Positions 3,931 through 9,696 of a stretch of DNA of 64,000 nucleotides are shown one piece after another. A program made the translations under genes and the position numbers. The notes under the pieces were generated by a model. That model did not search any database and was not told where the DNA came from. It was given only the letters and a program-made list of their open reading frames with translations. This stretch comes from Candidatus Poribacteria bacterium (GTDB lineage: Bacteria > Poribacteria > WGA-4E > WGA-3G): positions 1-64,000 of the forward strand of contig VXMD01000026.1 in the NCBI GenBank assembly GCA_009841255.1. Reading direction: 5' to 3'. The first letter of the stretch is position 1. Each line of letters begins with the position of its first letter.

Positions 3931-6816
3931 TCAATACCCAGAACTACTCTCTGGGGCGCTGTCTGTCTCGAGGGGGATATGAAACATCCCGTGTTGTTGC
4001 GTAACACTATAAAGCCTGTTATTATTGGCGACGAGAGAAAGAATCTTATCGGGAACATTTGACGAAATCTGTTCCCATTGGCCACGGGCATCTAAGTGAT
4101 AAACCCCTGCTTCACCGATTCCGTAGACTTTGGTGCCATCTGTCGTAAATCTGTCTACGATAGGACGCCCGCCATCACTATCGGTCAAAACGCTCCAGTG
4201 TTCCCCAGTCTGTGAAACCAAGGTTCCGTTGTCTGTTGCGACGTAGATCGTTGGCCCCACAAAGGTTACCTCTTTGAAACGGGTAAAGCGCAGCGGCAAG
4301 CTCGATGTAATGTCTTTCCAACTGTTTCCTTCGTCAAGTGACTGGAACAGATGTCCGTCCCGTTGACCGACGTAGACGGTTTCATCGGAGACCGCTATTT
4401 TGAATCCACCTCTGAAATCCCTATAGGACACTTGACTTGTATCTACCAATCCAGTGTTTGTCCACGCCGGATCCCCCAGTTTCCATTTGAAAAGTTTTCT
4501 TTGGTATTCCACATAGAACGCATCGCGGCTGGCGGTAGCCGTCTCCGTTTGCAGACGAGCTATAGCATAAGGATTAACTGTCTCCCGATCAAAAATGGGG
4601 ACACCTTGAACTGGTATGAGCGTATCACCGTCTGTAGATAAACGGAAAATTTGGAAGTCTTCTGCTTCAGATGAAAGGAAATAAAGGGTGTTGCCAACAA
4701 CTACGAACTTTGACTCAGAAGCGACTTTGATTCTGGGGTTGAGAACGGCTTCGGGGTCATCAACGGGAACTTTTTTCCAAGACTCCCCGGCATCCGAGGA
4801 TTGATAGACTTCATAGCCGGAATGTGCGTATAACCTATTGTTGAATGCAACCAGATCGATGATGAGTGTTCCTGTTATCCCGTTCAAAAAGATGTGCCAT
4901 GAGTTACCGCCATCAGTCGTGCGATGAAGCCCGAATCCGCCGGATTTGTAAAACGTACGCTCGTTCACCATTACAGCGGGGCGGCTACTTGTCCACAACC
5001 AATTCAAGTCCCGTCCAAGTTTTGCCCAAGTTTTACCACCATCTACTGAACGAAATTGATACTCCCCTAATGCCAAGAGCGTTTCACCTACGGCTAAAAC
5101 TGTTATACCTGCTGGTGAACCCTCATGACTGTATTCACTGCCATCCATTATTTCAGTCCACGAGGCTCCCAAGTCAGCTGAATGGAAAATCTTGACTGGG
5201 GACGACCTGTTACGCCAGTTATCCCAGTTATTTCGTATCTCTTGATATACCTCTGTTGGCGTTAATTTCACCAATAGATTGGAACCTGTTCCAACATAAA
5301 GGTTATTTCCAGAGGTTGTTAAGGAACAGACAGCCCGTGATGTATCCACTGGTAGTTTATTCCAGATGCCGACATCGAGACGGTAGAGTCCGTTCTCTGT
5401 GCCAGCAAACACTGTATTATCAACAGCGGCGATTGCGGAGATTTTTTTGCTTGTTAATCCATCGTGAAGGGGTTGCCATTGCGTTCCACCGTCTGTTGAT
5501 CGGAAAATCCCTTCATCTCTCAGGGCAAGGTACATTGTAATGTCGGGTTGTGCCTCACCCGTAATGAGAATTCCGACAGCCTCTCCTTTAGGTCGAGGAC
5601 CGAGTGTCCTCCACGCCTCACCCCTATCCGCCGAAGTGAATATCTCGTCGGCGGAAACGATATACAGGTTTCCCGCGTGGGTTGCCATTGGCATTAGAGA
5701 TTTGTCAATTGGAACACTCTTGTCGATGTGTGTCCATGCGGTCGCGTCTTCTGTTAATCTGTATAGTCCTGACGAGGCAACAGCATAGACGGTTCCTTCA
5801 GGTGTAGCGAAGATATTGCGGATATAACCGGCTGGGGGTCCATTTGTCTGCGTCCACTGTGAAATAGAGAACTTGGAAGAACCCGTTTGGGCATTAGCTG
5901 TTGAGGTCTTCTCAGAAGCCTGCAAAGCGACAGCGTTGATTCTATTGGAGGACACGGTTCGCCCAGCCCGATTTAGCAGATCGGGTTTTGACTGAATGTC
6001 AAGGACGATAGGGGCATCAACGATTTCAATTGTGGGTTCAGATGCCGCCTCAAAACTATAAGGTTTCTGGAAATGGGTGAGGTATCGATCGCTTGCACCC
6101 ATCAGCAACAGCACCAAAACCGCAGCGGTTCCCAAAGCCATCCATGGAATCAACGGTTTCGTAGCAGAAGGGGGGGTGGGTTTCAAGTCAGCGACTTGCC
6201 GCATGATGTTCTGGCTTAAACCCGTCGATATGTGGACGCCACTGAAGACTTCTTGAATGAGGAGTTCCTGATCTGCTTGTAAACGTTCGCGCCCGCGCCG
6301 GAGACGGCTTTTAATCGTGTTCACTGACACCCCCAAGAAGTTGCCTATCTCTTTCGCTGTCATCTCACCGAGATAATAGAGCGTCATCACTGTGCGCTCG
6401 CTTTCTGGGAGTCTTTCGAGAAGTTCTTCGACGATTTCATACCGGCGTTCCGTCGCTTCCGATTCACGTTCCTCAGAAACATAACGTTCATAAGTTAACT
6501 GATCGATTTTCCGTACTGACGTACGCTCCAGCGACTGCATCGCCGATTTGTTCCTTTGGAGCCAGTTAATGCAAAGCCGATTTGCAATGACATACAACCA
6601 TCCAGCAAATTGATGCGGATTTTTGAGGGTCGAGAGTTTTTTGTATGCTTGGAGGAAGGTGTCCTGCGTAATCTCTTCAGCATAGTGAAAATCGCTAATC
6701 TTTCGCCACGCGAGGGCGTGAACACTCCGCTGATATTTTTGCACTAACGTGCTGAAGGCATCATCGTCCCCCGATAAAATGTCGTGAATCAACTGAACAT
6801 CTTCTTTTGTTTCCAC
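3931..6816 (-). CDS. ECF-type sigma factor fused through a membrane helix to a periplasmic BNR/Ycf48-like propeller
   Basis: 961 residues. Residues about 20-85 are sigma-70 region 2 (FSTLVQKYQR, EEITQDTFLQAYKKL, WLYVIANRLCINWLQRN). Residues about 130-180 are region 4 (LPESERTVMTLYYLGEMTAKEIG, VNTIKSRLRRGRERL). A single membrane helix sits at about 224-240 (PWMALGTAAVLVLLLMG). The remaining roughly 700 residues hold repeats of the BNR/photosystem-assembly type (STDGGTQWQPL, SADLGASWTEI, SVDGGKTWAKLG, SSDAGESWKKV). A sigma factor tethered by its own helix to an outside propeller suggests a one-protein trans-membrane transcription sensor. It sits inside an operon of exported propeller and LamG proteins. 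It lacks the WG tail found on them. Confidence 0.9.
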   Translation of the reverse strand: METKEDVQLIHDILSGDDDAFSTLVQKYQRSVHALAWRKISDFHYAEEITQDTFLQAYKKLSTLKNPHQFAGWLYVIANRLCINWLQRNKSAMQSLERTSVRKIDQLTYERYVSEERESEATERRYEIVEELLERLPESERTVMTLYYLGEMTAKEIGNFLGVSVNTIKSRLRRGRERLQADQELLIQEVFSGVHISTGLSQNIMRQVADLKPTPPSATKPLIPWMALGTAAVLVLLLMGASDRYLTHFQKPYSFEAASEPTIEIVDAPIVLDIQSKPDLLNRAGRTVSSNRINAVALQASEKTSTANAQTGSSKFSISQWTQTNGPPAGYIRNIFATPEGTVYAVASSGLYRLTEDATAWTHIDKSVPIDKSLMPMATHAGNLYIVSADEIFTSADRGEAWRTLGPRPKGEAVGILITGEAQPDITMYLALRDEGIFRSTDGGTQWQPLHDGLTSKKISAIAAVDNTVFAGTENGLYRLDVGIWNKLPVDTSRAVCSLTTSGNNLYVGTGSNLLVKLTPTEVYQEIRNNWDNWRNRSSPVKIFHSADLGASWTEIMDGSEYSHEGSPAGITVLAVGETLLALGEYQFRSVDGGKTWAKLGRDLNWLWTSSRPAVMVNERTFYKSGGFGLHRTTDGGNSWHIFLNGITGTLIIDLVAFNNRLYAHSGYEVYQSSDAGESWKKVPVDDPEAVLNPRIKVASESKFVVVGNTLYFLSSEAEDFQIFRLSTDGDTLIPVQGVPIFDRETVNPYAIARLQTETATASRDAFYVEYQRKLFKWKLGDPAWTNTGLVDTSQVSYRDFRGGFKIAVSDETVYVGQRDGHLFQSLDEGNSWKDITSSLPLRFTRFKEVTFVGPTIYVATDNGTLVSQTGEHWSVLTDSDGGRPIVDRFTTDGTKVYGIGEAGVYHLDARGQWEQISSNVPDKILSLVANNNRLYSVTQQHGMFHIPLETDSAPESSSGY

Positions 6817-6861: not shown

Positions 6862-7731
6862 TCATTGCTTGAGTCGTCCCCATGTTGTGGCGAGTTTTTC
6901 GTGGGGTTCGGCTGCGAGGGGGATACCGGTCTTTGCGCCATTTTGACCCGTCAGATGGTGTGCATGCCCCGATGCGTCTGAAAATTTCTGTGTTCCGTTG
7001 GGTTCATCAAAATGCCACAGCGCAACTGTCTTCGCGTCTTTCTTGAACTTTTCGCGCGGCGTGAACCCTTTTTTGCCGACATTGTAACGAGCGACCCTTG
7101 AGATACGGACCTCATCAATATATCCCGCAAAGGGACCCCAGAAGAAGTTATCGAACACTTTAATTTTTTTTCCAAACCCTCCGAGTGTAAAATCCTTTGG
7201 ATGCTCGAAGTGTGCGAGATCGTGTGCAAGCGTTGTTTTTCGCGGCAGGATCTTTGCGACATCGTTAACAATGGCTGTTGTTTCTTTCTCTCTTGACTGA
7301 AATGCGATGTGATTCCATTGATTCGGGGAAAGTGCTATTATGTACCCTTGCGTAGCAGGTTTGCCCTTCACCGTAATATGCGATCGAAATATTAGGAATA
7401 AATCACCTGTCTGCCAATCAATACCTTCCTTTATGTTCTCCCACTCTCCATTATCGCTCGCGACGCTCATCTCCATCTGTTGGCTGAGAATCATGGCATA
7501 TACATTCCCAGCAGGTGGTGTGGTCGGATAGACCCACGCTTCAACGGTGAGCTCGTCCGTGCCTTTCGGTAAGAGGACACCAAAGGTTTTAAAGTCTAAA
7601 ACCGCAGAGTCGTCCACGCCATCGAGGATTAGATAGTTACCCCCAGCGGGTGAAGGGGGTGGAAACGCTTTAGCACTTAGCGGGATTAAAGCGAGGAAAA
7701 AGAGGCATGTTAGGATGTGTCGGTGTATCAT
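6862..7731 (-). CDS. Secreted LamG-domain protein with C-terminal TTWGxLK tail
   Basis: 289 residues. The ATG has an AAAGGAGAT site. A signal peptide spans residues 1-22 (LFFLALIPLSAKAFP). A concanavalin/LamG jelly-roll follows (residues about 30-230: NYLILDGVDDSAVLDF, ELTVEAWVYPT, QWNHIAFQSR, GYIDEVRISRVARY), then VALWHFDEPNGT, a common end for this family. LamG domains usually bind glycans or proteins outside the cell. The end HEKLATTWGRLKQ matches the tail on the Kelch and TolB proteins downstream. It is the first gene of the same-strand run that includes the sigma-propeller gene 45 bases downstream. Confidence 0.88.
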   Translation of the reverse strand: MIHRHILTCLFFLALIPLSAKAFPPPSPAGGNYLILDGVDDSAVLDFKTFGVLLPKGTDELTVEAWVYPTTPPAGNVYAMILSQQMEMSVASDNGEWENIKEGIDWQTGDLFLIFRSHITVKGKPATQGYIIALSPNQWNHIAFQSREKETTAIVNDVAKILPRKTTLAHDLAHFEHPKDFTLGGFGKKIKVFDNFFWGPFAGYIDEVRISRVARYNVGKKGFTPREKFKKDAKTVALWHFDEPNGTQKFSDASGHAHHLTGQNGAKTGIPLAAEPHEKLATTWGRLKQ

Positions 7732-7930
7732 CTTTTATCTCCTTTTTCGTCTAAAGAGGGAAACTCGTGAGTTTCATATCTTGTAAAATCAAGACGATAT
7801 TGTTAAAGACACAATTTTAAGGCAAAAAGGGTGCATAATGGGAAAAAAAATGAAAAATTGCTTGAAATTGCGGATTTTTTTACGAATTTAAGGGAAAAAA
7901 GAGTGTTGTGTGGATAAGGGGAATAAAAAT

Positions 7931-8134
7931 GGAGCCGGAAACCACATTCCTAATCGGTTCCAAGAGTTTCAGGGATTTCAACTGAACTAACACATGCAAC
8001 GGGAACTTGCAAGTCACACCTTATAGGAATTATGGCTCCGACTACCCAAGGAGGCTCACATAGACACGAGCAAGTTCCGTGCCAATCGAAAATGGGCTGT
8101 TTTGGGCAATTTTTCGGAATATTGCCTATTTTTT
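7931..8134 (+). ncRNA. Candidate free-standing structured RNA of unknown class
   Basis: No reading frame covers this part of the 468-base gap. Pairings seen directly: GGAGCC 7931-7936 with GGCTCC 8034-8039; ATTCCTA 7946-7952 with TAGGAAT 8024-8030; hairpin TGCAA 7995-7999 / TTGCA 8007-8011. The loop and 3' arm of that hairpin (CGGGAACTTGC, 8000-8010) can also pair with GCAAGTTCCG at 8070-8079, giving a pseudoknot or an alternative fold. A factor-independent terminator closes the element on the plus strand, so it is probably transcribed rightward. I see no good promoter, only a weak TTGAAA near 7862. It does not fit tmRNA, RNase P RNA, SRP RNA or 6S RNA by sequence. Confidence 0.5.
8105..8134 (+). 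terminator. Intrinsic terminator of the candidate RNA
   Basis: GGCAAT (8105-8110) pairs with ATTGCC (8121-8126) around a TTTTCGGAAT loop region and is followed by TATTTTTT. The T tract lies on the plus strand only, so it ends rightward transcription and not rtcB, which arrives from the right. A competing pairing exists just upstream (CGAAAAT at 8087-8093 with ATTTTTCG at 8109-8116) that would break this stem, as in an anti-terminator. Confidence 0.65.
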
Positions 8135-8199
8135 GGACATGCTATGATAAAAAAATGCACAGCGTGGCGAAAGTATGTGGGAATCACCGACACTAAAAC

Positions 8200-9654
8200 T
8201 TAGCCTTTTACAACACCAATGGGACGGAGGCGTGCAACGCGACGGGAAAGTCCCGCTTTGTCAACGACTCGGACGACCTCGTCAACGTCTTTGTAGGCTT
8301 CGGGGACCTCTTCTTGGAGCGTCCGTCTGCCTTCTGCTCGGACGTAGATACCTTGTGCCTCCAAATCTTTCTGGATAGAACGTCCCTTTGTCAAGGCGAT
8401 CGCTTTTCGCCGCGAGAGAACCCTACCTGCCCCGTGACAGGTCGTGCCCCACGTCTCAGCCATTGCACCCGGGTTCCCGACAAGCACGTAGGAGGCGGTT
8501 CCCATATCGCCGGGAATTAAAACAGGTTGACCGACTTTCTGGTATTTATCGGGGATCTCAGGATGCCCCGCTGGAAACGCACGCGTCGCGCCTTTGCGAT
8601 GGACGAAGAGTTCACGCTCTTTACCATTAACGGTGTGTTTCTCAAATTTTCCGATGTTGTGGGCGACGTCGTAGACGAGTTCTAAGCCGAGTTCGTCTTC
8701 TGTGGTTTCAAAGAACTGCATGAAGGTCTGGCGGACGAGATGCATGATACACTGCCGGTTGTTCCAGGCATAGTTGGCACTACACGCCATTGCGGTGATG
8801 TAATCCTGTCCCTCGGGTGAGTTGATCGGTGCCGAAGCGAGTTGTCGATCGGGGAGATTTATACCGTATCTCTCGGCGACTTTGACCCAGCTTTTGACGT
8901 GTTCATCACAAATTTGGTAACCGAAGCCGCGCGAACCCGTATGGATCATGACGCAGATATTGCCCTCACGCAACCCCATGGCGTCAGCGGCTTCCCGATA
9001 AAAAATACGGTCAACGGTTTGCACTTCAAGGAAATGGTTGCCGGAACCGAGGGTGCCGAGTTGGTTTTTACCGCGTTCCAACGCCCGTTGGCTCGCCGCA
9101 TCGGCATTTGCGTGTTGTAGAAAACCGGTCGCTTCTGTAAAGTCGAGATCTCCTACGTGACCGTATTCCCGCTCAATTGCCCAAAGCGCGCCTTTCTCTA
9201 ACATCCGTCGCTCTTCTTGGAGAGTGAGCCGGATTGTGCCGCTGGAACCGACACCACACGGGACGTTCTCGAACAACTTGGCGACGAGTGCTTTCCGCTT
9301 GCCTTCAAGCTGCGAGACATTGAGGTTCGTCCGAATCAGGCGGACGCCGCAGTTGATGTCATACCCGATACCACCCGGAGAGACGACACCATCTGCTTTC
9401 GGATCCGTAGCAGCGACACCTCCAATGACGAAGCCGTAACCCCAGTGCAAATCGGGCATTGCGAGGGAGTGTCCGACAATACCGGGGAGATGTGCTACGT
9501 TTGCGACTTGTTGCAGTGCCTCGTCGCTTTTGGCGTTTTCGAGAAGTTTCTCGTTGGCGTAGACAATTCCGTCTACACGCATGCCTTTCATGTAACTCTT
9601 CGGGATACGCCAGCGATATTCATCAAGTTTTTGGAGTGTTATGTTTTGTGCCAT
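8200..9654 (-). CDS. rtcB: RtcB RNA-splicing ligase (tRNA/RNA 3'-phosphate ligase)
   Basis: RtcB joins RNA 2',3'-cyclic-phosphate or 3'-phosphate ends to 5'-OH ends, using GTP and manganese. The signatures are all present: GGIGYDINCGVRLIRTN (metal-binding Cys), LGSGNHFLEVQ, MIHTGSRGFGYQ, YDVAHNIGKFEKH, VHRKGATRAFPAG, IPGDMGTASYVLVG, and TCHGAGRVLSR with the histidine that is guanylylated. The start is chosen at MAQNITLQKLDEYRW (ATG at 9652-9654); the frame is open 13 codons further but that extension has no family likeness. No archease gene is adjacent. The upstream dehydrogenase gene ends 42 bases before this start, so the two may share a transcript. Confidence 0.95.
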   Translation of the reverse strand: MAQNITLQKLDEYRWRIPKSYMKGMRVDGIVYANEKLLENAKSDEALQQVANVAHLPGIVGHSLAMPDLHWGYGFVIGGVAATDPKADGVVSPGGIGYDINCGVRLIRTNLNVSQLEGKRKALVAKLFENVPCGVGSSGTIRLTLQEERRMLEKGALWAIEREYGHVGDLDFTEATGFLQHANADAASQRALERGKNQLGTLGSGNHFLEVQTVDRIFYREAADAMGLREGNICVMIHTGSRGFGYQICDEHVKSWVKVAERYGINLPDRQLASAPINSPEGQDYITAMACSANYAWNNRQCIMHLVRQTFMQFFETTEDELGLELVYDVAHNIGKFEKHTVNGKERELFVHRKGATRAFPAGHPEIPDKYQKVGQPVLIPGDMGTASYVLVGNPGAMAETWGTTCHGAGRVLSRRKAIALTKGRSIQKDLEAQGIYVRAEGRRTLQEEVPEAYKDVDEVVRVVDKAGLSRRVARLRPIGVVKG

Positions 9655-9696
9655 GATAAATTGAGCAGACACCAAGACTGCCCTTGTCCACAAGGT

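Follow-up and report, generated by a model that had tools for sequence, protein, structure and literature searches.

A candidate sigma-54-dependent small RNA gene, absent from Rfam, in sponge-associated Poribacteria

In Pseudomonas, the genes of the small RNAs (sRNAs) CrcZ, CrcY and CrcX carry an RpoN promoter and are controlled by the NtrC-family activator CbrB (PMC8657755). The enterobacterial sRNAs GlmY and GlmZ have sigma-54-type promoters as well, with GlrR as the activator (PMC3844500). For the Qrr sRNAs of Vibrio, where sigma-54 works with LuxO, a sigma-54 dependence that requires enhancer-binding proteins is described (PMC10162802). In Salmonella, sigma-54 is found together with rtcB (PMC3844500).

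The locus described here lies in a 5.7-Mb genome of a Poribacteria bacterium, in a 64-kb stretch of DNA that was analysed as a whole and is referred to as the window. The RNA-bearing interval is flanked by a LamG-like gene (6862-7731, minus strand) and by rtcB (8200-9693, minus strand; PF01139, E 1.2e-173), which is an upstream neighbor on the same strand and lies outside the sRNA unit. We conclude that the interval holds an uncatalogued minus-strand sRNA gene of sponge-associated Poribacteria, a new family of a known kind of regulator, and we put the probability that this gene is free-standing and sigma-54-dependent, with its own promoter, paired upstream sites and terminator, at roughly 0.88. 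By analogy, it resembles the Crc, Glm and Qrr systems at the level of transcription, and it matches no catalogued family. As for CrcZ, CrcY and CrcX, a sigma-54-type promoter with an NtrC-family activator is predicted to drive a small RNA; CrcZ, however, is longer and titrates Hfq-Crc via many A-rich motifs, and the Poribacteria sRNA has no Rfam match. Nor does it match GlmY and GlmZ in sequence or structure by Rfam, and it occurs as one copy, not as a duplicate pair. Qrr sRNAs, also without a match to it in Rfam, are often present in several copies, whereas this sRNA is single-copy. It differs from the RtcR-controlled rtcBA operon in that the promoter there drives rtcBA, while the Poribacteria promoter sits downstream of rtcB and would drive an RNA.

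A sequence-only reading had placed a structured RNA of no assigned family in a gene-free interval just past the rtcB 3' end, and both points held. No plausible coding gene was found between the LamG-like gene and rtcB, only chance open reading frames, and no open reading frame of at least 50 amino acids on the minus strand over the sRNA. None of the 4227 Rfam models, 6S included, matched anywhere in the window at the curated threshold, and relaxed thresholds gave none either; the best weak scores were 16.1 of 45 bits for sbrA and 11.2 of 38 bits for drz-agam-2-2. In a sigma-70 promoter scan the count was not above that of shuffled sequences, with no hit at the sRNA site. A literature search on sRNAs or sigma-54 in Poribacteria found nothing relevant.

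A covariance model, R1, was built from the minus-strand RNA and searched across 85 genomes. In the genome of origin (G000), where the structured-RNA segment is single-copy, R1 matched contig C26 at 7925-8060 on the minus strand with 135 bits. R1 detected one copy per genome in 33 of the 38 genomes of the genus and in 19 of the 21 others in the family; the 26 genomes from other Poribacteria families had none, so that 52 of 85 genomes carry the sRNA, each once. The same-genus copies of the segment, present in most genomes, are 70-93% identical. From the R1 match and two alignments (A3 and A5), the gene spans ~134 nt (7925-8058, minus strand); the start at ~8058 is an estimate, placed 12 nt beyond the -12 C, and the end was set at the U tract. 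Conservation covers 7925 to ~8161 and begins abruptly at the A run 7925-7929, with none upstream of plus-strand 7925. These limits fit the minus strand best, as the A run then reads as a terminator U tract and the part beyond 8134 lies upstream of the promoter. In seven family genomes (G002, G008, G009, G011, G033, G062 and G064) the sRNA was not detected, and the set of activators they encode could help to identify the cognate regulator.

The predicted sigma-54 promoter (TTGGCACGGAACTTGCT; -24 element TTGGCACG, -12 element TTGCT) lies at 8085-8069 on the minus strand and matches the consensus perfectly. TTGGCA..TTG is retained with constant spacing in all 52 copies across the family, and likewise in all 30 genus copies; only one of the 52 departs, by a C to T change at the -12 C. 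In these copies the RNA's conserved CCTCC lies 14-18 nt downstream of the -12 element. Within the window this is the only sigma-54 match, even with one mismatch allowed. Shuffled windows contain at least one loose sigma-54-like match in 41% of cases when one mismatch is allowed, and thus it is the conservation, not the single match, that carries the promoter claim. Across the genome, the exact consensus occurs at 7 sites, against 0 for a reversed control pattern. Of six further sites inspected, four (L037-L040) are directly followed by what looks like a start codon, and another is the first of a tandem promoter-like set upstream of an Hsp20-type gene. Three tandem sigma-54-like promoters are seen at C31:87468 (L036), before an apparent Hsp20-type heat-shock gene. 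At C32:50203-51093 (L038, L050) an activator gene adjoins the sigma-54 promoter of an oppositely read gene, and the two are likely a local regulator-target pair.

The promoter is preceded by two 17-bp sites in inverted orientation (TGYCTATTTTTTNNNCA). The first, site 1 (TGTGCATTTTTTTATCA; family consensus TGTCTATTTTTTNATCA), occupies 8145-8161 on the minus strand and is conserved as a 17-mer in most of the 52 copies. Site 2 (TGCCTATTTTTTGGACA), an inverted copy of site 1, occupies 8123-8139 on the plus strand; in most copies its start is 54-56 bp away from that of the promoter, on the upstream side. Measured from the -24 box, the paired 17-mers start 54 and 76 bp upstream (~66-103 bp before the RNA start), and they are helically phased; upstream activator sites often lie about 70-150 bp upstream (PMC3844500). 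From the start of one site to the start of the other the distance is 20-23 bp in most genomes and 31 bp in several, so that the two spacings differ by roughly one helical turn; in one copy (L016) the stretch between site 2 and the promoter is ~10 bp shorter, again one turn. In one genome (G034) an insert of ~130 bp separates the sites from the promoter and leaves all parts intact, which is compatible with an enhancer, since enhancers tolerate added distance. This insert (contig C63, L028, ~5012-5140) has inverted ends, ACGTGAGTTTG and CAAACTCACGT, and resembles a mobile or repeat element of small size. A strict pattern search of 40 related genomes found the paired sites at the sRNA locus only, and at the other sigma-54 promoters of the own genome they were not visibly common, with two weak candidates. 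The block at 8100-8161 is best read as a predicted enhancer. On the same contig, 3.8 kb past the end of the window (C26:67812, L191), a similar motif, also enhancer-like, and TTGGCAAGGTTTTTGCT are found ahead of a response-regulator-like gene, possibly a second target of the same activator.

The RNA itself is dominated by one long helix. The nested complementary segments pointed out earlier, GGAGCC (7931-7936) with GGCTCC (8034-8039) and ATTCCTA (7946-7952) with TAGGAAT (8024-8030), are present, and the covariation proposed as their test bears out the long nested helix. In this main helix, P1 (5' arm 8024-8042, 3' arm 7933-7952, minus strand), 14 of 20 pairs have changed on both sides and 90.5% of cells are paired. 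The U tract (7925-7929) directly follows the 3' arm as in an intrinsic terminator, and its T run is conserved at the RNA 3' end. For the whole structure in 52 copies, in an alignment fitted to the minus-strand structure, 88.9% of cells are paired and 22 of 39 pairs have changed on both sides; 119 cells changed on both sides compared with 37.5 in shuffles, a value that 0 of 500 shuffles matched. In slid-partner controls, pairing dropped to 29-43%. Default RNAalifold gave weak structures only, on both strands, and the structure signal required ribosum scoring and the wider family. Raw APC covariation from 30 close sequences was dominated by phylogeny and was set aside.

Folding of the single sequence gave a z-score of -2.06 for the plus strand (7 of 200 shuffles) and -1.08 for the minus strand. 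As both values are modest, the strand is not decided from one sequence. Across the 52 copies the mean z-score is -3.06 for the sRNA strand versus -2.45 for the opposite one, the sRNA strand being better in 35, and P1 holds 93 G-U cells on the sRNA strand versus 47 if read on the other (~2:1). Both the G-U counts and the z-scores across copies favor the minus strand.

These results bear on the proposal from which the analysis started, a structured plus-strand RNA of ~200 nt at 7931-8134 that would contain a pseudoknot and stop near 8134 at a terminator of its own. P1 pairs on the plus strand too, the plus-strand z-score of the single sequence fits, and the proposed terminator, GGCAAT (8105-8110) with ATTGCC (8121-8126) followed by TATTTTTT, is present; within the genus its hairpin and T run are kept throughout, and most changes in the arms still allow G-U pairing when read on the plus strand. 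We nevertheless consider such an RNA very unlikely. The promoter in 52 of 52 copies, the G-U counts and the fold z-scores assign the gene to the minus strand, the strand of rtcB, and the RNA runs from ~8058 to 7925 inside a conserved block that continues for 27 bp beyond the proposed end. Since nothing is conserved before plus-strand 7925, a plus-strand promoter is missing. The segments GGAACTTGC (8002-8010) and GCAAGTTCC (8070-8078) of the pseudoknot exist, but the partner, GCAAGTTCCG, is the invariant -12 promoter element, and only 7 of 38 testable copies retain the 9 bp that it would form with GGAACTTGC. The inverted repeat of the terminator (8105-8126, plus strand) overlaps site 2 and is mostly lost in the sister genus, where 1 of 17 copies has a strong stem abutting the T run, whereas the sRNA, promoter and enhancer sites persist. 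A plus-strand terminator confined to the genus may therefore be an extra feature of a block that is mostly predicted enhancer. The same loss, and the lack of a following gene on the plus strand, speak against the idea of a switch. In one genome, moreover, an insert of ~130 bp splits the plus-strand unit. The locus illustrates that, when only one strand is read, promoter conservation can pass for a pseudoknot and an enhancer can look like a terminator.

Returning to the minus-strand gene, its neighborhood invites another explanation, namely that the segment is a 3' untranslated region element that controls or terminates the rtcB mRNA. rtcB adjoins the segment in nearly all genus copies, on the same strand and with the sRNA directly downstream. 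We hold this to be highly improbable, because each sRNA copy has its own sigma-54 promoter, no sigma-54 site lies before rtcB in the window, and the gap between the two varies widely among copies in length and sequence. In two complete or near-complete family genomes (G063 and G082) they are megabases apart, which leaves a strict link between sRNA and rtcB, and the functional connection guessed at earlier, unsupported; the association is positional.

The least probable alternative is a diverged housekeeping RNA, for instance an unusual 6S RNA: a single, stable copy throughout the genus would suit it and the slot is open, as the Rfam 6S model found nothing in the whole genome, but Rfam matches are lacking at gathering and relaxed thresholds, sigma-54 control is unusual for housekeeping RNAs, five same-genus genomes and all 26 searched genomes outside the family gave no match, and RNase P RNA is readily found elsewhere in the genome. 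This lineage may lack 6S RNA or have a strongly diverged one.

In the predicted sRNA, the 5' segment (GAGCCTCCTTGGGTA, 8042-8056, minus strand) is near-invariant, with invariant alignment columns; its RNA consensus is RCCUCCUURGGURAG, of which CCUCCUU is complementary to Shine-Dalgarno sequences. This anti-Shine-Dalgarno CCTCCTT (8054-8048, minus strand) lies in a small hairpin, GCCU/GGGU, or GCCU/AGGU in the sister genus. The hairpin helix is 98% paired, and one of its pairs is U-G in 33 cases and U-A in 18, the change from U-G to U-A being seen in the sister genus. A search for the extended Shine-Dalgarno target CCCAAGGAGG before ATG gave 0 matches, and no strong extended target for the sRNA 5' end was found. 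The genome encodes one rpoN, its product having all three Pfam domains, nine clear or strong enhancer-binding activators and a match to an Hfq-like domain or protein. The parts of a sigma-54-dependent sRNA gene that sequence can show were found: the promoter, RpoN with activators, putative upstream activator sites and a structured RNA with an intrinsic terminator.

Taken together, we propose that an NtrC-family enhancer-binding activator would bind the two inverted 17-bp sites (8123-8161) and turn on sigma-54 RNA polymerase at 8085-8069. The polymerase would start at ~8058 and yield an RNA of ~134 nt, predicted to fold into the small CCUCCUU 5' hairpin and the long helix, which closes a junction with two hairpins, and the transcript would end at the U tract after this helix. 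Judging from its sequence, the sRNA probably acts in trans by base pairing; by the simplest route, the 5' CCUCCUU would pair with the Shine-Dalgarno regions of its targets, and the Hfq-like protein may take part.

Control by sigma-54 would mean that a stress- and nutrition-linked system switches the sRNA on. A bolder idea, which we regard as doubtful, is that it may be a family-wide master sRNA of sponge-symbiont Poribacteria with a dedicated sigma-54 activator, whose invariant CCUCCUU hairpin would mask the Shine-Dalgarno sequences of many mRNAs and repress them at once. For a phylum known mostly through metagenome assemblies, the locus contributes an RNA family that Rfam lacks, and it gives a complete predicted control unit of enhancer, promoter, RNA and terminator that is directly testable in metatranscriptomes.
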